Assembly (NCBI RefSeq): GCF_024296665.1
Contig: NZ_CP100762.1
Coordinates: 1,736,001-1,800,000, forward strand
Reading direction: 5' to 3'
DNA from: Salinilacihabitans rarus
Lineage (GTDB): Archaea; Halobacteriota; Halobacteria; Halobacteriales; Natrialbaceae
DNA length: 64,000 bases
The notes beneath the pieces are model-generated. The model made no database searches. It had not been told where the DNA came from and worked only from the letters and a program-made list of their open reading frames with translations. A program made the translations under genes and the position numbers. Shown here piece by piece: positions 4,437 through 12,504 of the stretch; position 1 is the first letter of the stretch; each line of letters starts with the position of its first letter.

Positions 4437-4920
4437 GGGCGACGGCGCGGACGAGTTGACGCACACGACTGCGGAGGGCGACGTCCAGATGGTCGACGTC
4501 GGGGACAAACCCGACACGAAGCGGCGTGCGGTCGCCGCCGGCGAGATCCACCTGCGGCCGTCGACGATCGAGGCGATCCGCGCCGACGAGGTCGGCAAGG
4601 GCGACGTGCTCGCCACCGCGCGCGTGGGGGCGATTCAGGCCGTCAAGCACACGTGGGAGACGATCCCGATGTGCCACGCGATCCCGATCACGAACGTCGA
4701 CACGGCGTTCGACGTCGGCGAGGCCCGGATCGAACTCGAGGTGACAGTCGAGACGACCGGCAAGACTGGCTGCGAGATGGAGGCTCTGGAGGGGGTGACC
4801 ACGGGGTTGAACGTCGTCTGGGACATGGTGAAAGCCGTCGAGAAGGACGACGACGGCCAGTATCCGGCGACGCGGATCGAGGACGTGCGGGTGCTAGAGA
4901 AGGAGAAACGCGAGCCCTAG
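4429..4920 (+). CDS. moaC: Cyclic pyranopterin monophosphate synthase MoaC
   Basis: A 163-residue MoaC, which acts after MoaA in molybdenum cofactor synthesis to make cyclic pyranopterin monophosphate. Diagnostic blocks are MVDVGDKPDTKRRAVAAG at the N-terminus, the active-site IPMCHAIPI, and GCEMEALEGVTTGLNVVWDMVKAVEKD. ATG 4429 lies inside the end of nnr (8-bp overlap); a GTG nine bases upstream is a weaker alternative. Its product is needed for the molybdopterin of the two DmsA-type reductases further right, although the genes are not adjacent. The stop overlaps by three bases that of the convergent DUF7344 gene. Confidence 0.96.
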   Translation: MSEGDGADELTHTTAEGDVQMVDVGDKPDTKRRAVAAGEIHLRPSTIEAIRADEVGKGDVLATARVGAIQAVKHTWETIPMCHAIPITNVDTAFDVGEARIELEVTVETTGKTGCEMEALEGVTTGLNVVWDMVKAVEKDDDGQYPATRIEDVRVLEKEKREP

Positions 4921-5330
4921 ATGTCATACTCGACGTCCGCACACGTGCTGACGAGTTCTTCGAGGGCCGCCGGCGGGTCGCGGTACCTGACGGCGCCGGA
5001 CCGGCCGTCGTACTCGACGACCCTCGCGTCGGCCAGTTTCGGGAGGTGGACGTGGAAGAGGTCGACGGTCACCGGGGCGTAGTCGGCGTCGGTCACCTCG
5101 TCGACGGGGACGTCCTCCTCGACCGCGGCGATCCAGCGGGCGAGCGTCTCCATCGTGGCGCGCTCGCGGCGCCGCAGGTAGTAGAGGGCGAGGCGTCGGC
5201 GTCGGTGGGCGAGCGCTCCGAGGTAGTCGTCGACGCGGACCTGCAGGCCCCCCGACGCCGGTCGCGGCGGCGGGTCTCGCGGGACGTTCGCTCCCCCGTC
5301 CCCGCCCCGGTCGTCGGCGTCGTCGCTCAT
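4917..5330 (-). CDS. DUF7344-type winged-helix regulator
   Basis: A 137-residue haloarchaeal small regulator. After a low-complexity N-terminal 30 residues comes a winged-helix core: YLGALAHRRRRLALYYLRRRERATMETLARWIAA, then VDLFHVHLPKLADARVVEYDGRSGAVRYRD as recognition helix and wing. The LYHxHLPKL-like signature (here DLFHVHLPKL) marks the DUF7344 family, which I infer to be DNA-binding. A second member lies at 52335-52883. No membrane segment is present in this one. Target genes unknown. Confidence 0.85.
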   Translation of the reverse strand: MSDDADDRGGDGGANVPRDPPPRPASGGLQVRVDDYLGALAHRRRRLALYYLRRRERATMETLARWIAAVEEDVPVDEVTDADYAPVTVDLFHVHLPKLADARVVEYDGRSGAVRYRDPPAALEELVSTCADVEYDI

Positions 5331-5442: not shown

Positions 5443-6717
5443 ATGACCAGCGACGGGTCCCCTGGCGACGATCGGGGATTCGACGGGACGTCGACGCTCG
5501 CCCCCGAACTGGTACTGGCGGTCGCCGACGCCGCGGGGTGTGACCCGCTCGACCTGCCGGTGCTCAACGGGGTCGTGGATCCGGACGCGCTCGAAGCGCT
5601 GTTCGTCGCGCCGGGGCACGGCGACGCGCCGGGACGCGGCGACGCGACGGGGCGGCCGACGGCCGTCGTCGCGCTCGCGCTCGGCGACCGCGTCGCGACC
5701 GTCGACAGCGACGGTTCGCTGTCGGTGGTGGCGTCCGGAACCGACGTCGAGGAGGCGCTGGGGGTCGTCGACGAGGCGACGGTCCACGCCGTACGCCACG
5801 ACTGGGACGAGTCGCAGTCGCTCCACGCCACCGTCGTCCGGACGGTAGTCGCCGCCACGGATGCCGATCCGGTCGCCGTCCGCGGCGCGCTCGGCGACGT
5901 CGTCGACGCGAGCGCGCTCGACGCGCTGTTCCGGCCGCGCGCGAACGGTACCCCACGCGGCGAGGGCGCGCTCCGCCTGCCGTTTCGCGAGCACGACGTC
6001 GTGGTCCGCAGCGACGGGCTGGTCGCGCTCCAGCCGACGCTCGCGCGGATCAAGCACACCGGGGGGAACCTGCTCGTCGTCGGCTCGGTCCCCCGCGAGG
6101 TAAGCGACGGGACGAGCGAGGCGCTGCTCGGCACCGATCCGGACCGCTCGCGCGTCGTCGCCGTCGACGGCCGCCACGTGGGCACCGCCTTCGGCAGGCT
6201 CGCGGCCGTCGACGCGGCCCCCTCGCGATCGATCGTCGTCGACTACGGCGACGACGGCCGGTCGGTCGCGGCGACGCCGTCGACGACCCGCCGGCCGCCG
6301 GTCCGCGCCGTCGACGGCGACCTCGCGAAACTGACCGCGGCGATCGTCGACTCCGTCGACGACCTCGAACGCGGCTGCGACGGCTTCGCGCCCGGTCAGC
6401 TTCGCTTCTGTCTCGACTCGCTCGGCTCGATCGAGTCCCGCCACGGCCGGGACGAGGTACGGACCCTCCTGGAGACGGTCTGCGAGCGGATCGAGCGCGC
6501 GTCCGGCATCGGCCACTTCGTCCTGCTCGCCGACCGGGACTCCGAACACGTCCGCGCCGTCGAGGACCTGTTCGACGTCGTCGTCGAACTCCGCGCCGGC
6601 GTCGACGGCCCCCAGCAGCGCTGGCACCTGCGCGAGACGGGCCACTCGACGGCGTGGTTCCCGGCGACGCCCGAGGCGGAGGAGGGGGACGCGAGTACCG
6701 GGGGGCATCGGCCGTGA
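5443..6717 (+). CDS. Tandem HalOD1 domains fused to DUF7504-type RecA-like domain
   Basis: A 424-residue protein with two N-terminal copies of the haloarchaeal output domain HalOD1. The first (about residues 20-105) begins LVLAVADAAGCDPLDLPVL; the second (about 125-200) has VVAATDADPVAVRGALGDVV and then FREHDVVVRSDG. From about residue 205 there is a RecA/KaiC-like region (HTGGNLLVVGSVP, SRSIVVDYGDD, LRFCLDSLGSI, FVLLADRD, QQRWHLRETG) that matches the DUF7504 or HTR-like family as I know it. No canonical Walker A lysine is visible in the GGNLLVVGSVP loop, so ATP hydrolysis is doubtful. The stop overlaps the GTG start of the CHAT gene by 4 bp, implying coupled translation. Confidence 0.82.
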   Translation: MTSDGSPGDDRGFDGTSTLAPELVLAVADAAGCDPLDLPVLNGVVDPDALEALFVAPGHGDAPGRGDATGRPTAVVALALGDRVATVDSDGSLSVVASGTDVEEALGVVDEATVHAVRHDWDESQSLHATVVRTVVAATDADPVAVRGALGDVVDASALDALFRPRANGTPRGEGALRLPFREHDVVVRSDGLVALQPTLARIKHTGGNLLVVGSVPREVSDGTSEALLGTDPDRSRVVAVDGRHVGTAFGRLAAVDAAPSRSIVVDYGDDGRSVAATPSTTRRPPVRAVDGDLAKLTAAIVDSVDDLERGCDGFAPGQLRFCLDSLGSIESRHGRDEVRTLLETVCERIERASGIGHFVLLADRDSEHVRAVEDLFDVVVELRAGVDGPQQRWHLRETGHSTAWFPATPEAEEGDASTGGHRP

Positions 6718-8810
6718 AACCGACGTTTCGCTCCCGGGCGGAGCCGCCGGGGCTGGTGATCCGCGACCCCGTTCAGGGGCGGCAGTTCCCGCTGGAGACG
6801 GCCGCGCCCGTCGAGCCCCGCCCGTCGGCGCGCGACCGCTTTCGCTTCCCGGTCGACGCCGCCGCGACGATCGACGCCGACCGGATCGACCTCCCGCTTG
6901 TCGTCGCGACGTACGTCCGCGACGCCGACGGCGACCTCGTCGCGGAGGCCGAACACTTCGCCTACGAGGAACTGCCCCCCGGCGAGTACGTCGTCGAACT
7001 GATGGCGCCGATCAAACTCTACCTCCGGGTCGAGGGCGCGCTGACGGTCGCGTCGTCGGCCGACCACCTGCGCCTCGAAGCCGACGGCGACGCGCCCGTG
7101 GAGGTCGGCGCGCGCTCGAACCACCGCCGGCCGCCCGCGACGGTGACGACGACCGCCGACCCCGAGGACCTGCTGGCCGCGGTGTCGACGTTCGGCGCCG
7201 CGCTGAAGACGACCAGCCCGGAGCGGTCGCTCCCGTCGCTGCGGGGCCACCCGCCGCGGATCGAGCGGGGCGAGGCGCTTCGGATTCCCGAGGGGCTCGA
7301 CCCGCCGGAGACGGGGATCCGGATCGAACTCCCGCCGGAGCGAGCGGCGGTGTACGCCGCGAGCACCCTCGCGTACTACCTCGGCGCGACGGTCGAACCC
7401 GGTCCGGAGCCGCGACTCGTCGCCGACGGCGTCGACCGCCCGCTCGGCCGGCCCGGGCGGCCCCTCGAGGAGGCGGCCCGGGACCTCCTCGAACGGACGT
7501 TCCTCCTCGACTGCGTCGCCCGGACCGAGGGGCTCTACCGGGTCGACCTCCACGAGCGGCGCGAACTCGACGAGCGCGTCGACGTCGACTGGGCGGCGCT
7601 GTACGAGGCGTCGCCGGCCGAGCGCCTCCGGCGGTACCTGTCGATCCCCCGCGAGGCGGTGGCCGACCTCGTCCCGACGTGGCGGGTGGCGACGTACGCG
7701 ACGCCGGCGCCCGCGAACGACCGCCTGCTCCCGTTCGCCGTCAACGGCCTCTCGCCGGTCCGGACGTCGGCGGTCCGGCACGCGGCGGCCCCGGCCACGC
7801 GGGAGCGACTGGGCGTCGACGAGTTCCTCAGGTCGGCGGACGCGCCGTCGCGGGCCCGCGCGGACGCGCCGGGCGTCGAGCGCGACCGGGCCTCCGACGT
7901 CTCCTACGTCTCTTTCCCCTCGACGGACGCGCTGGAGGTGGCGTGGCTCGGCGAGGAGCGGCCGATCGGCGCGAACCACCTGCTCGAAGCGGGCTTCGAG
8001 AACAAACTCGCGCGCGGGCGGCCCGGCGCGGGGATCGACATCACCGTCGTCTGTAACGACCCGTCGATGAGCGCGGAGTACGACGGCGCCGACCGGTCGC
8101 TGTACGGCGACCGCGACGAGTTGCCGTTCGACGTCGACGTCCGCTACGACCTCTCCCGGGAGGAACTCGCGGACGTCCTCGCGGCCGACACCGACTTCCT
8201 GCACTACGTCGGCCACAGCGAGTCGACGGCGTTCGTCTGTCGCGACGGCCGCGTCGACGCCGGCGACCTCGACCGCGTCGGCCCCTACGCGTTCCTGCTC
8301 AACGGCTGTACCTCCTACGAGCAGGGGGTCCGGATGCTCGACGGCGGGAGCGTCGGCGGAATCGTCACCCACAGCGACGTCGGCAACGACGACGCGACGG
8401 CCATCGGGCGGTCGATCGCACGGCTGTTGAACGCCGGCTTCTCGCTGCGGGCCGCCCTCGAAATCGCGCGCGACCGCCGGACCGTCGGCACCCAGTACGT
8501 CGTCGTCGGCGACGGCGGCGCGCAGGTCGCCCAGAACGAGGCCGGCACGCCGGTCCGCTACCGGATCGACTCCCGCGCGGACGGCCGGTACGACCTGCGC
8601 GTCGAGACCTACCCTACCCTGGAGGCGGGGATGGGCGCGATGTACCTCCCCTACCTCGACGGCGTCGACACCCACTACCTGACCGGCGGGGCGTTACCGC
8701 CGTTTGCCGTCGACGCCGCGCAACTGGCGCGGTTCCTCGGCCTCGAGGAGGTGCCGGTCCTGTTCGACGGCGAGCGCCGCTGGTCGAGCGAGGTCGACGT
8801 GGCGGCCTGA
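6714..8810 (+). CDS. CHAT-domain (caspase-fold) protein
   Basis: A 698-residue protein starting at GTG 6714, inside the preceding stop (GTGA). The C-terminal third shows a CHAT protease pattern: FLHYVGHSEST with His497/His501, then DGRVDAGDLDRVGPYAFLLNGC with Cys532, followed by GGIVTHSDVGNDDATAIGRSIARLLNAGFSLRAALEIARD, which corresponds to the family's late strand and helix. The His-Cys pair is the expected dyad of caspase-like peptidases. About 480 N-terminal residues are beta-rich and unfamiliar to me (PPGEYVVELMAPIKLYLRVEG, GIRIELPPERAAVYAASTLAYYLGA). There is no signal peptide or membrane segment. Role inferred: a protease controlled by the coupled HalOD1/RecA-like protein. Confidence 0.8.
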   Translation: MKPTFRSRAEPPGLVIRDPVQGRQFPLETAAPVEPRPSARDRFRFPVDAAATIDADRIDLPLVVATYVRDADGDLVAEAEHFAYEELPPGEYVVELMAPIKLYLRVEGALTVASSADHLRLEADGDAPVEVGARSNHRRPPATVTTTADPEDLLAAVSTFGAALKTTSPERSLPSLRGHPPRIERGEALRIPEGLDPPETGIRIELPPERAAVYAASTLAYYLGATVEPGPEPRLVADGVDRPLGRPGRPLEEAARDLLERTFLLDCVARTEGLYRVDLHERRELDERVDVDWAALYEASPAERLRRYLSIPREAVADLVPTWRVATYATPAPANDRLLPFAVNGLSPVRTSAVRHAAAPATRERLGVDEFLRSADAPSRARADAPGVERDRASDVSYVSFPSTDALEVAWLGEERPIGANHLLEAGFENKLARGRPGAGIDITVVCNDPSMSAEYDGADRSLYGDRDELPFDVDVRYDLSREELADVLAADTDFLHYVGHSESTAFVCRDGRVDAGDLDRVGPYAFLLNGCTSYEQGVRMLDGGSVGGIVTHSDVGNDDATAIGRSIARLLNAGFSLRAALEIARDRRTVGTQYVVVGDGGAQVAQNEAGTPVRYRIDSRADGRYDLRVETYPTLEAGMGAMYLPYLDGVDTHYLTGGALPPFAVDAAQLARFLGLEEVPVLFDGERRWSSEVDVAA

Positions 8811-8924: not shown

Positions 8925-9059
8925 TCAGTAGGTGGTGGCGCCGGAAGCCGCCGCCGCGCTGCCGGCCTGCGAGAGCGCCAGCATGATCGCGAACAGGAAG
9001 CCGATCGTTCGGGGGTTCTCGGTGACGTACGCCCGGAGGGCGGAAGTGTCTTCGGACAT
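8925..9059 (-). CDS. 44-residue DUF7503-like membrane peptide
   Basis: A very short gene reading MSEDTSALRAYVTENPRTIG, then one hydrophobic helix (FLFAIMLALSQAG) and a small-residue tail ending ASGATTY. The pattern 'polar head, NPR, F/L-rich helix, LSQAG, Ala/Gly tail' matches a family of about 45-residue haloarchaeal proteins (DUF7503) that I recall as sitting beside DUF7504 genes. It converges on the CHAT gene with 114 bp between stops. The ATG lies about 30 bp downstream of an AAGATATTTT element. Function unknown; possible effector, anchor or substrate of the neighbouring protease-like protein. Confidence 0.8.
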   Translation of the reverse strand: MSEDTSALRAYVTENPRTIGFLFAIMLALSQAGSAAAASGATTY

Positions 9060-9090
9060 TGCATATTACCGGGCGGCGGCGACGCACTTG

Positions 9091-9100
9091 AAAATATCTT
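9091..9100 (-). promoter_or_regulatory. TATA-like element of the 44-residue peptide gene
   Basis: AAGATATTTT on the minus strand, 32-41 bp upstream of the ATG at 9059, inside an AT-rich patch (9088-9124) that contrasts with the GC-rich flanks. Position and composition fit an archaeal TATA box. Confidence 0.5.
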
Positions 9101-9247
9101 AACATTACATACCCAAAATAAATTGGCGTTACCGGGCGACGTCGAAAAGCCAATAGGTGATTACCGCGACGCTGGCGACGGTTCCCGACCGGTCCCGGGA
9201 CGGGCGCTATCGGTGCCGCGAGGGAGACGGCGGCCGGCGCGTCGGTG

Positions 9248-9991
9248 TCAGAGGTCCATCCCGCCGTTGACGTCGATCACCTCGCCGGTGATGTACGAGG
9301 ACTCCTCGCTGGCGAGAAAGCGGACGGTGGCGGCGACGTCCTCGACCTCGGCCAGCCGTTCGAGCGGGATGCTCGCGATGATCCGGTCGAGCACCTTCTG
9401 GGGCACCGTCTCGAGCATGTCGGTGTGGGTGAAGCCGGGAGCGACGCAGTTGGCCGTCGAACCGCCCTGGGCGAGTTCGAGCGCGATGGTGCGCGTGAAG
9501 CCGAACATGCCGCTCTTGGCGGCGGCGTAGTTGGCCTGCCCGAAGTTGCCCTGCTTGCCGACGACGCTCGAGATGTTGATCAGTCGGCCCTCCTCGGCGT
9601 TCCAGATGTCGTCGTAGAACGCCTGCGTGCAGTTGAACATCCCGCCGAGGTTGACGTCCATCACGCGCTCCCACTCCTCGCGGCTCATGTCGACGAACTG
9701 GGTGTCGGCGGTGATGCCGGCGTTGTTCACGAGGACGTCCGCGGGCCCGAACGCCTCGTGGCACGCCTCGCGCATCCGCTCGACCTCCTCGCGGTTCGTG
9801 ACGTCGGCCTGGGCGGCGATCGCCTCGCCGCCGAGGTCCTCGATCGCCTCGACGGTCTCGTAGGCCGGCCCCTCCGAGGACCGGTAGTTGATCACCACGT
9901 TCGCGCCCTCCTCGCCGAGGCGCTCGGCGATGCCCCGCCCGATTCCGCGCGCCGATCCGGTGACGACGCAGGTTCGCCCGTCCATTGGCAT
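9248..9991 (-). CDS. phaB: Acetoacetyl-CoA reductase (SDR) PhaB
   Basis: A 247-residue short-chain dehydrogenase. It has the TGSARGIGRGIA nucleotide-binding loop, NNAGIT, catalytic Ser in ISSVVGKQGNFGQ, YAAAK (Tyr-Lys pair), and the C-terminal SSYITGEVIDVNGGMDL. GNFGQANYAAAKSGMFGFT is the FabG/PhaB subtype, and the location beside the PHA genes makes acetoacetyl-CoA to 3-hydroxybutyryl-CoA reduction the likely reaction. ATG 9991 is preferred; GTG 10003 and ATG 9985 are alternatives. A TTATTTAA box at 10020-10027 suggests its own promoter, separate from phaRPEC. Confidence 0.88.
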   Translation of the reverse strand: MPMDGRTCVVTGSARGIGRGIAERLGEEGANVVINYRSSEGPAYETVEAIEDLGGEAIAAQADVTNREEVERMREACHEAFGPADVLVNNAGITADTQFVDMSREEWERVMDVNLGGMFNCTQAFYDDIWNAEEGRLINISSVVGKQGNFGQANYAAAKSGMFGFTRTIALELAQGGSTANCVAPGFTHTDMLETVPQKVLDRIIASIPLERLAEVEDVAATVRFLASEESSYITGEVIDVNGGMDL

Positions 9992-10140
9992 GGTCGTGCA
10001 CACGTTAGACGTCCGACGTTAAATAACGACCCCGTCCGTCTATCGTTCCGAAACACGCGTCGCGAGCGCCGCTCGACCGGGCGACGCGTACGTTTCAACC
10101 GACCGAAAAGACCTTCTCCTCGCGGGTCGACGTCCGGACC

Positions 10141-10572
10141 GTGTTCGCTTCGATCCCTCCGCTCGACCTCGCGGTGATCGCCGCCGGACTCGCCTTGCTG
10201 CCCCTCTCGGCGGCCGCGCTCGCGTACGCCGTCGCGGCCGACGCGAACGCGCGCGGCCGCCGCGGCCTCGAGTGGGGCGTCGGGACGTTCCTGTTCCCGA
10301 TCCCCGTCGGTCCCCTCTACGCCGCCCGCCTGCTGGGCCGGCCGCCGGCCCGGACGCGCCCGCGCTCGCGGCGCGAACGCGCCGCCGGGTCGGTCGGCGT
10401 CGGCGGCCTCGTGGCACTCGCCGTCGCCGCGGCGGCTACGCCCCCGGACCCGCTCTCGGTCGCGACGGTCGCCGTCCCGCTGACCGCCGGCTTCGCCGCG
10501 CTCGCGTACGTCCTCCTGTACGGATCCGGCCCCGGACGGCGTCGCGAGCGCGTCCGGGGCGAGAGCGGGTGA
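10141..10572 (+). CDS. Small membrane protein of unknown function
   Basis: A 143-residue protein with a GTG start. It has an N-terminal hydrophobic helix (LDLAVIAAGLALLPLSAAALAYAV), a short DANARGRRGLEWGVGTFLFPIPVGPLYAARLL segment, and two C-terminal hydrophobic stretches (GVGGLVALAVAA, VPLTAGFAALAYVLLYG). The arrangement suggests three or four membrane spans with Arg-rich loops. No enzyme motif is visible. It converges with phaC, leaving only 4 bp between stops. Real coding is supported by hydrophobic periodicity in this frame but not by family recognition. Confidence 0.6.
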   Translation: MFASIPPLDLAVIAAGLALLPLSAAALAYAVAADANARGRRGLEWGVGTFLFPIPVGPLYAARLLGRPPARTRPRSRRERAAGSVGVGGLVALAVAAAATPPDPLSVATVAVPLTAGFAALAYVLLYGSGPGRRRERVRGESG

Positions 10573-10576
10573 GAAA

Positions 10577-11968
10577 TCAGCGTTCGCGGGCCTGTTCGAT
10601 CCAGTTTTCGATCCGGCCGGGCGCGATGCCCGTCTCGGCGGCGAGGGCGGCGGCGTCGGCGCCGGCGAGGCCGTCGAACGTCTCGATACCGGCCTCGCGG
10701 AGGTCGGTCGCGTACGCCTCGCCGACGCCGTCGAGGTCGGTCAGGTCGTCGGCCTCGACCGCGGGCCCGTCCGCCTGAAGCGTCTCCTCGCCGGTCTCGT
10801 CGACGTCGACGTCCTCGGCGAGGGCGGCGTCGGCTTCCTCGGGTTCGGGTTCGGGCACCCCGGGTTCGCCCTCGACGTCGGTACCGTTCGACCGCTCCTC
10901 GAACCACTCGCAGACGTCGGGCCAGAGTTCGGCGTGACTGCGCGAGGAGACGGACATCCCGATGTGGCCCGTCGGGAACTCCATGATCTCCGTGTCGTCG
11001 CTCGGGACGACCTCGTTGAACGGCTTGGACGCCCCCGGCGGGATCAGGTGGTCGTACTCGGCGACGATCTGGAGGATCGGCATCTCGAGGTTCGCGAGGT
11101 CGACGTGGGTCCCGTCGAGGTAGAGTTCGTTCTCGTACAGCCTGTTGTCCTGGTAGACGTCGCGGATGAACTGGTCGTAGGTCTCGCCGGCGACGTCGAT
11201 GCCCTCGGCGAGCCACCGCTCCATCCGCGCGAAGTTCCCGACGAAGTCCTCGTCCTCGACGTTCTCGTAGAACCGGACGTACTTCGTGACGTTGTTCGCG
11301 ACCGGGTCCATCAGCGCGAAGCCGACGTCGAGAAACTCCGCGGGGACGTTGTCGAAGGTGTCGGTCACCTCCTCGGGATCGTAGTACTCCTCGGCACCCC
11401 ACAGTTCGAGGACGCCGCCCTCGCCGGCGAAACAGAGGCCGGCGGCCATCAACCCGAGGTTGCCGACCTTCTCGGGGAAGAGCGCGGCGTACATGGCGGA
11501 CATGGTGCCGCCCATGCAGTAGCCGAGGACGTTGATCGCGTCCTCGCCGGAGCGCTCGCGGACGACGTCGACGCAGTTGTCGACGTACCGGGTGACGTAG
11601 TCGTCGAGCGTCAGCGAGCGATCGAGCGCCGACGGCTCGCCCCAGTCGATCATGTAGACGTCGAAGCCCGCTTCGAGCAGCCGCCGGATCACCGACCGAT
11701 CCGGCTGGAGGTCGAGGATGTACGGCCTGTTGATCAGCGCGTAGACGACGAGGATGGGAACGTCGTGTCGTGTCTCGGTCTGGGGCTCGTAGTGTAACAG
11801 TTCGAGCTTGTTCTCCTCGTAGACGACCTCGCTCGGCGTCTGCCCCACCTCGACTTCGTTTACCGTCTCGGCGCGGTCGGGGGCGACCTGAAGCCGTTCG
11901 GCGGCCTCGGCGGCGTCCTCCCACGCCTGCCGCTGGGCGTCGAGCGCGAGTGCGTAGGGGTTTCTCAT
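10577..11968 (-). CDS. phaC: Class III PHA synthase subunit PhaC with C-terminal helix-hairpin-helix tail
   Basis: A 463-residue alpha/beta hydrolase that polymerises (R)-3-hydroxyacyl-CoA at the PHA granule. The lipase-box-like GYCMGG places the catalytic Cys at 151; AEYDHL gives Asp306 and PTGHIG gives His335. [10 protein letters not shown] and the [14 protein letters not shown] block are PhaC hallmarks. After residue about 360 there is an acidic linker and then two helix-hairpin-helix-like motifs ([32 protein letters not shown]). Bacterial class III PhaC is about 355 residues, so the tail is an extension. The start overlaps phaE by 4 bp (ATGA). Confidence 0.95.
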
Positions 11969-12504
11969 TCTTCTTCGAGGTGGTCGAGCACGCGGTCGAG
12001 TTTCTGCTCGACGGCGTGCTGGCGGCGTTCGAGTTCGACCAGCCGGTCGCCGACCTCGGCGACGTCGTTCCCGGTGGCGAACCCGAGCGTCCGGAGGGTG
12101 TTCTCGGCGGCCTCGTCGGCCTGCTGCTGGAGTTCGAGGACGTCGCCGACGGTCTCGCCGGTCAGCCGGGCGAACGCGGTCGTCGACATGACCTCCTTGA
12201 ACGCCTCGTTGGCGGTGTTGAGCCAGATGTCGCGGAACTCCTCGACGTCGACGTCCTCGCCCTCGACGACGTCGTTCATTCGCTCGACCATCTGCCGGGA
12301 GGCGTCCATCCACGCCTCGTAGGCGCGGGCGTAGCCCTCGACGCCGTCGGCCATCTCCTCGTCCTCGGCGGTCCGCTCGACGGTCTCGGCCCAGCTTTCG
12401 ACGAACTGCGCCTGCGCTTCCATGTTGGTCTCGACCGCGTCGAGGAACTGCTCGTTCCACTGCTCGACGAACGCGTTCCAGTCTTCGGGTTGTGTGTCAG
12501 TCAT
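11965..12504 (-). CDS. phaE: PHA synthase subunit PhaE
   Basis: A 179-residue helical, highly acidic protein immediately upstream of and overlapping phaC. Recognisable parts are [32 protein letters not shown] at the N-terminus, a central [27 protein letters not shown], and a C-terminal coiled-coil segment [29 protein letters not shown]. This is the short archaeal PhaE, about half the length of bacterial PhaE. It forms the PhaEC synthase complex. Assignment rests on context plus these blocks. Confidence 0.9.

Follow-up and report, generated by a model that had tools for sequence, protein, structure and literature searches.

The gene at positions 6714–8810 (plus strand) of a 64,000 nt window from the genome of the haloarchaeon Salinilacihabitans rarus (contig NZ_CP100762.1, positions 1,736,001 to 1,800,000) encodes a protein of 698 residues, which by its predicted fold is a clan CD (CHAT-like) cysteine protease. 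Close to it lies a convergent gene for a 44-residue membrane peptide of the DUF7503 family, and across the protease family this peptide was found next to members with an intact catalytic dyad but never next to members in which the dyad is broken. We tentatively propose a signal-regulated cytosolic protease that has the DUF7503 peptide as its dedicated substrate. A previous sequence-only reading of the same DNA had described a CHAT protein with a large unrecognized N-terminal region, and had missed the two neighbors that make the locus interesting, the DUF7503 peptide and a HalOD1-DUF7504 protein encoded directly upstream.

Predicted Fold of the Protease

The open reading frame (ORF) is real. 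It starts with GTG at 6714, its first 4 bases being shared with the upstream gene (stop at 6717), and its own stop codon ends at 8810. The ORF and the positions of H497, H501 and C532 were as the sequence-only reading had placed them. The whole protein gave no match of any weight in Pfam, NCBIfam, PADLOC or the PDB sequences. An AlphaFold2 model built from 36 homologs had a mean predicted local distance difference test (pLDDT) score of 86 and a predicted template modeling score of 0.87. In this model, the N-terminal region (residues 1–358, positions 6714–7787) is followed by a disordered linker (residues 362–394, positions 7797–7895), where pLDDT was below 50 and conservation was lowest. A caspase-like (CHAT) domain comprises residues ~398–610 (positions 7905–8543), and a C-terminal extension of 88 residues with several short strands completes the protein (residues 611–698, positions 8544–8807). 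The protease region is thus predicted to begin near residue 398 and not, as had been assumed, around residue 480.

We compared the model to the PDB with Foldseek. The best matches were SAVED-CHAT (8tl0, E = 1.6e-6), gingipain, separase and Csx29, and caspases were also matched. Nearly all of the 32 PDB chains at E ≤ 0.001 belonged to clan CD. The model has the caspase-like fold that characterizes the CHAT family, and His501 (codon 8214–8216) and Cys532 (codon 8307–8309, in an NGC motif) each stand just after a strand of the sheet (residues 495–499 and 526–530, respectively).

The CHAT profile PF12770 did not match the window protein. Sub-threshold matches to PF12770 in the same genome (12.7–15.1 bits, with a cut-off of 24) were three paralogs of the protease family and nothing else. 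The curated cut-off was passed by relatives in genomes G064 (28.1 bits) and G072 (34.1 bits), and the protease family as a whole was therefore linked to CHAT.

Conservation and Loss of the Catalytic Dyad

We analyzed the conservation of the dyad in samples of homologs and loci that consisted of the best-ranked matches. In a set of 64 members, H501 and C532 were each present in 61, and both were lost in the same three. Among 101 members, 84 had both dyad residues, 15 had neither and 2 had one. This bears out the presumed conservation of the two residues.

Every one of the 61 intact members in the 64-sequence set had a His-to-Cys spacing of 31. In separase and gingipain this spacing is about 26–33. 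Spacings of 40–64 were seen in 12 canonical CHAT proteins matched within the phylum, and we took about 40 or more as typical of canonical CHAT, though not as a formal criterion; the dyad of Csx29 (H615/C658) has a spacing of 43 (PMC10028731). Compared with CHAT proteins, the spacing in the window protein is therefore short, as had been noted from the sequence; within the wider clan CD it is not. H497, which would give a spacing of 35, had been considered as an alternative catalytic His. Members from another archaeal family have Gln at this position and yet retain H501 and C532, and we therefore regard H501 as the catalytic His. C509 was rejected as the nucleophile: it was kept in 96 of the 101 members, including most of those with a broken dyad, and its role is probably structural.

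A tree of the N-terminal core placed the dyad losses in about three independent events. One dyad-broken clade was nested inside a peptide-bearing clade; here, dyad and peptide were lost together and the N-terminal core was kept. Such pseudoprotease paralogs are widespread, with one in the source genome (L005/L044), and may regulate the active copies. At loci L044 (4920 onward), L140–L143, L145, L147–L149, L151 and L155–L158 the dyad was lost, the N-terminal core was conserved, and neither DUF7503 nor DUF7504 adjoined.

A Convergent Membrane Peptide beside Dyad-Intact Members

The DUF7503 peptide (PF24335, E = 2.4e-16) is encoded on the minus strand at 8925–9059, just downstream of the protease gene, and contains a single hydrophobic helix. 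An AT-rich region at 9087–9124 (minus strand) is its putative promoter. It has a block that resembles the archaeal B recognition element (BRE) and TATA box about 28–41 bases before the ATG; another AT block lies farther out, between about −56 and −65. Over 67 loci, AT content upstream of the ATG peaked at −31 to −40 and at −61 to −70, and the nearer block resembles an archaeal BRE/TATA promoter.

In 41 genomes, 45 of the 47 DUF7503 genes above cut-off were convergent to a protease-family gene and lay 6–223 bases downstream of it. Of the two exceptions, one was located at the end of a contig; the second had the same orientation as the protease gene and lay 4.5 kb downstream. DUF7503 was likewise missing from all 20 listed genomes that lack the protease. 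The peptide was found beside 67 of the 84 dyad-intact members and beside none of the 17 dyad-broken members, so that the protease gene and the gene of its candidate substrate show conserved adjacency. Dyad-intact members without the peptide belonged mainly to a deep clade (clade II), to the non-haloarchaeal members, or to tandem neighbors of a peptide-bearing copy. In the main branch of the family, the peptide gene adjoins nearly all intact members. Members of clade II, non-haloarchaeal members and dyad-broken members had essentially no other hydrophobic peptide next to them. At loci L153, L154 and L139, tandem protease copies share one DUF7503 peptide.

The DUF7503 homologs have 40–49 residues and all start with ATG. 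P16 was present in 67 of 67 sequences and R or K at position 17 in 65, forming a Pro-Arg/Lys pair just before the hydrophobic helix; A37 was conserved in 66. Position 35 is commonly A or V, the C-terminus is short, and 43 of the 67 peptides end with Gly-Pro. The ratio of nonsynonymous to synonymous differences per site (pN/pS) was 0.08–0.40 in close pairs, distant pairs being saturated and excluded. This indicates that the peptide is translated and under purifying selection.

Because the peptide stands beside dyad-intact members only, and disappears together with the dyad from loci that retain the N-terminal core, it is best read as acted on by, or restraining, catalysis. A naive Fisher test on the co-loss was strong, but on the tree the roughly three events were not significant by the independent-pairs test; given this small number, we did not rely on the Fisher result.

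The N-Terminal Region

Residues 1–358 were modeled confidently (pLDDT 95). The sequence-only reading had described about 480 unrecognized, beta-rich residues with alternating short motifs. An unrecognized region does exist, although its extent is residues 1–358, to which the C-terminal extension has to be added; residues 1–146 are beta-rich, whereas residues 147–358 are alpha/beta, and no repeat motifs were seen. Residues 1–480 had no match in Pfam or NCBIfam, and an alignment of residues 1–358 had none in Pfam or among the PDB sequences. When the N-terminal model was compared to PDB and viral folds, weak beta-sandwich resemblances were obtained (template modeling score ~0.2, high root-mean-square deviation), which are not interpretable. 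The view that this part matches no known partner domain is in line with the profiles, the PDB sequences and the lack of a convincing fold, and the profile searches gave no support for TPR, WD40 or any other Pfam domain. We also considered that the region might stand alone or elsewhere; in the plasmid collection, however, the region and the full protein each matched 25 records, from the same organisms, and this idea was discarded.

The core of the N-terminal region (residues 131–350) was as conserved as the protease domain. Each of R177, L219, Y222 and D266 was missing from at most one of the 101 members. As the dyad-broken ones are among these 101, the N-terminal region probably has a role that is independent of proteolysis. 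The fixed spacing of 31, the inseparable N-terminal region, and a PF12770 profile that misses the window protein yet is passed by two relatives support the suggestion of a distinct subfamily.

The Upstream HalOD1-DUF7504 Gene and Other Neighbors

The gene directly upstream (5443–6717, plus strand), which overlaps the protease start and lies in one operon with it, encodes a protein with HalOD1 (E = 4e-24) and DUF7504 (inactive KaiC-like; E = 1.6e-41) domains according to Pfam. The upstream gene appears to follow the HalOD1-iKaiC architecture that Galperin et al. 2018 described (PMC5847659), and from its sequence features DUF7504 would correspond to the iKaiC domain of that description. Of 73 testable loci, 44 have a DUF7504 gene in the same orientation directly upstream of the protease gene, at a distance of −4 to 163 bases. 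In the 22-member clade of the window protein, this was the case at all loci except a tandem copy behind a linked one.

A DUF7344 protein, helix-turn-helix-like by eye, is encoded divergently from the HalOD1-DUF7504 gene (4917–5330, minus strand; Pfam). DUF7344 was frequent in the window's own clade, with the same layout in several related loci, and the protein is possibly a local regulator. In PADLOC, neither the protease nor the upstream HalOD1-DUF7504 gene had a match at E ≤ 1. We also searched for RNA features near the protease locus and found none. No phage record matched the protease family, and a phage origin of the gene was rejected. On the other side of the locus (9248–12504), a polyhydroxyalkanoate-synthesis-like cluster was recognized by eye, with a short-chain dehydrogenase/reductase (SDR) and a PhaE/PhaC-like pair; it showed no sign of a tie to the protease.

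Proposed Mechanism and Alternative Explanations

In the mechanism that we propose, the protease would be a caspase-like enzyme of the cytosol whose CHAT-type domain acts through the His501/Cys532 dyad, and its N-terminal region of unfamiliar fold would serve as a sensor or scaffold. In the branch of the window protein, the protease would be co-produced with, and probably switched by, the HalOD1-DUF7504 signaling protein. Its dedicated target would be the convergently encoded peptide. Activation would lead to one specific cut in the short cytosolic tail of the peptide, plausibly after the near-invariant Pro-Arg/Lys before the helix. By this cut, a peptide that is membrane-active or exported would be set free or altered; the parallel is the CHAT protease Csx29 with its dedicated substrate in Craspase. 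The cleavage site is a guess from the conserved residues of the peptide and from the preference of several clan CD families for Arg at P1 (PMC4357240).

Several points weigh against this proposal. The protease function is deduced from the predicted fold and the conservation of the dyad, and the gene linkage fits the peptide as substrate, inhibitor, anchor or toxin alike. The Arg or Lys ahead of the helix could simply set membrane topology by the positive-inside rule, and A35-A37 of the peptide resembles a signal-peptidase site. On the tree, His and Cys were jointly lost in about three independent cases, which is not enough for significance. Some other substrate must serve clade II and the members from outside the haloarchaea, in which the dyad is intact and the peptide is missing. 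DUF7504 is absent from many loci of the family and is thus not obligatory.

Among the alternatives, a regulatory role of the peptide deserves most attention, although we consider it unlikely. The peptide would inhibit the protease or anchor it to the membrane, similar to a small antitoxin, and would be lost with the dyad as an inactive enzyme needs no inhibitor. Gene linkage and co-loss fit this equally, and with its conserved putative promoter region the peptide could be produced separately from the protease operon, which an inhibitor would require. However, the hydrophobic helix that forms the conserved core of the peptide offers few polar contacts, and dyad-intact members of clade II do without the peptide. 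We rank the role as substrate above that of inhibitor or anchor, and both above that of an exported signal.

The last of these is improbable. Signal peptidase would cut the precursor after A-x-A (positions 35–37) and free a peptide of 6–10 residues, and the protease would act on the leftover signal peptide or on the response. The strong conservation of A37, the common A or V at position 35, the short C-terminus and the frequent Gly-Pro end agree with this. However, at ~17 residues and with just one conserved basic residue, the N-terminal tail exceeds the usual length in signal peptides, and no conserved receptor or exporter gene was noticed in the annotated loci, for which no systematic search was made.

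Distribution and Caspase-Like Activity in Haloferax

Profile searches detected the protease family in 364 of 392 Halobacteriales genomes (93%); a search with a single sequence detected it in 268 of 293. The source genome has five copies, and the number per genome is usually 1–6. Outside Halobacteriales, where the search covered the same phylum only, the family was found in just one other family, in four genomes of 3.0–3.2 Mb. These distant members (L078–L081; genomes G402, G411, G420 and G429) keep H501/C532 in three cases, L078 being without both. Public plasmid annotation lists family members mostly as 'hypothetical protein', with single cases of 'CHAT domain-containing' or 'caspase family'.

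Dihydrofolate reductase (DHFR) of Haloferax volcanii, confirmed against PDB 1vdr and 2ith, was used as a query and marked genus g64 as Haloferax-like (89–92% identity, eight genomes). All 15 genomes of this genus had exactly one copy of the protease, and every locus of the genus in the linkage set had DUF7504 upstream. In the H. volcanii control genome, DUF7503 and DUF7504 were both above cut-off. H. volcanii can thus be expected, from these sequence comparisons, to carry the protease. At the Haloferax-like loci L074, L101, L104 and L105 the protease gene lies ~8–16 kb from dhfr, a landmark for finding it in H. volcanii.

Extracts of H. volcanii have strong caspase-like activity without a recognized gene homolog, and archaea were said to lack clear caspase homologs (PMC3615174). 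The protein could then be a general housekeeping protease and possibly the source of this activity, its association with the peptide reflecting localization only. The single copy in each Haloferax-like genome and the presence of DUF7503 and DUF7504 in H. volcanii would agree with this, but we give such a role little credence. The activity needs Asp at P1, while several clan CD families, as mentioned above, prefer Arg. Similar activity was reported for archaea outside Halobacteriales (PMC3615174), where the family was not found in the sample searched, which covered its own phylum, and caspase-like sites of the proteasome are an alternative source. That the caspase-like domain is a non-enzymatic scaffold with structural dyad residues is very improbable: the whole set of relatives that persist after dyad loss would fit, but H501 and C532 occur together in 84 of 101 members at invariant spacing, and the loss of one nearly always comes with loss of the other.

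Comparison with Known Systems

SAVED-CHAT (8tl0), the best structural match, and the CHAT proteins of PF12770 share with the window protein a caspase-like domain, a His-Cys dyad, and the order of an N-terminal part followed by the CHAT domain. In contrast to them, the window protein has no recognizable SAVED or TPR part, its spacing is 31 instead of 40–64, and most members of its family score below the CHAT cut-off; unlike SAVED-CHAT, it has a peptide neighbor and not a CRISPR cascade. In bacterial gasdermin loci, the gene for a caspase-like protease adjoins a gene for a membrane protein, and in this the window locus is similar. It differs in the nature of DUF7503, which has 40–49 residues with one helix and no match to any other family, and in the convergent orientation of the genes; no link to defense was seen either (no PADLOC match). 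Separase (C50) and gingipain (C25) belong to the same clan, were matched by structure and have a similar His-Cys spacing; whole-protein sequence homology was not detectable, and the N-terminal parts differ.

Csx29 (TPR-CHAT) of the type III-E Craspase is also a clan CD protease with a structural match, and has a dedicated substrate, Csx30 (PMC10028731). The window system lacks Cas7-11 and TPR, and its candidate substrate is a 44-residue membrane peptide and not a large protein. The upstream gene appears to share the architecture of the HalOD1-iKaiC proteins of Galperin et al. 2018, while a pairing with a protease and DUF7503 is not among what is described in the accessible part of that paper (PMC5847659).

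Implications for Haloarchaea

Archaea have been described as without clear caspase homologs (PMC3615174); the clan CD protease family reported here occurs in 93% of the sampled Halobacteriales genomes. Three families that are un- or little-studied (DUF7503, DUF7504/HalOD1 and the N-terminal region) are tied into one testable system with a specific candidate substrate, and the single copy per Haloferax-like genome makes the system testable there. A bolder reading, which we consider doubtful, is a near-universal haloarchaeal switch, in which a KaiC-like-controlled caspase-like enzyme cuts the 44-residue membrane peptide and thereby releases a membrane-active toxin or an exported signal. If true, the pair would be exceptional among protease-activated effectors for its small size, and archaea would have their own counterpart of the caspase/gasdermin death modules.

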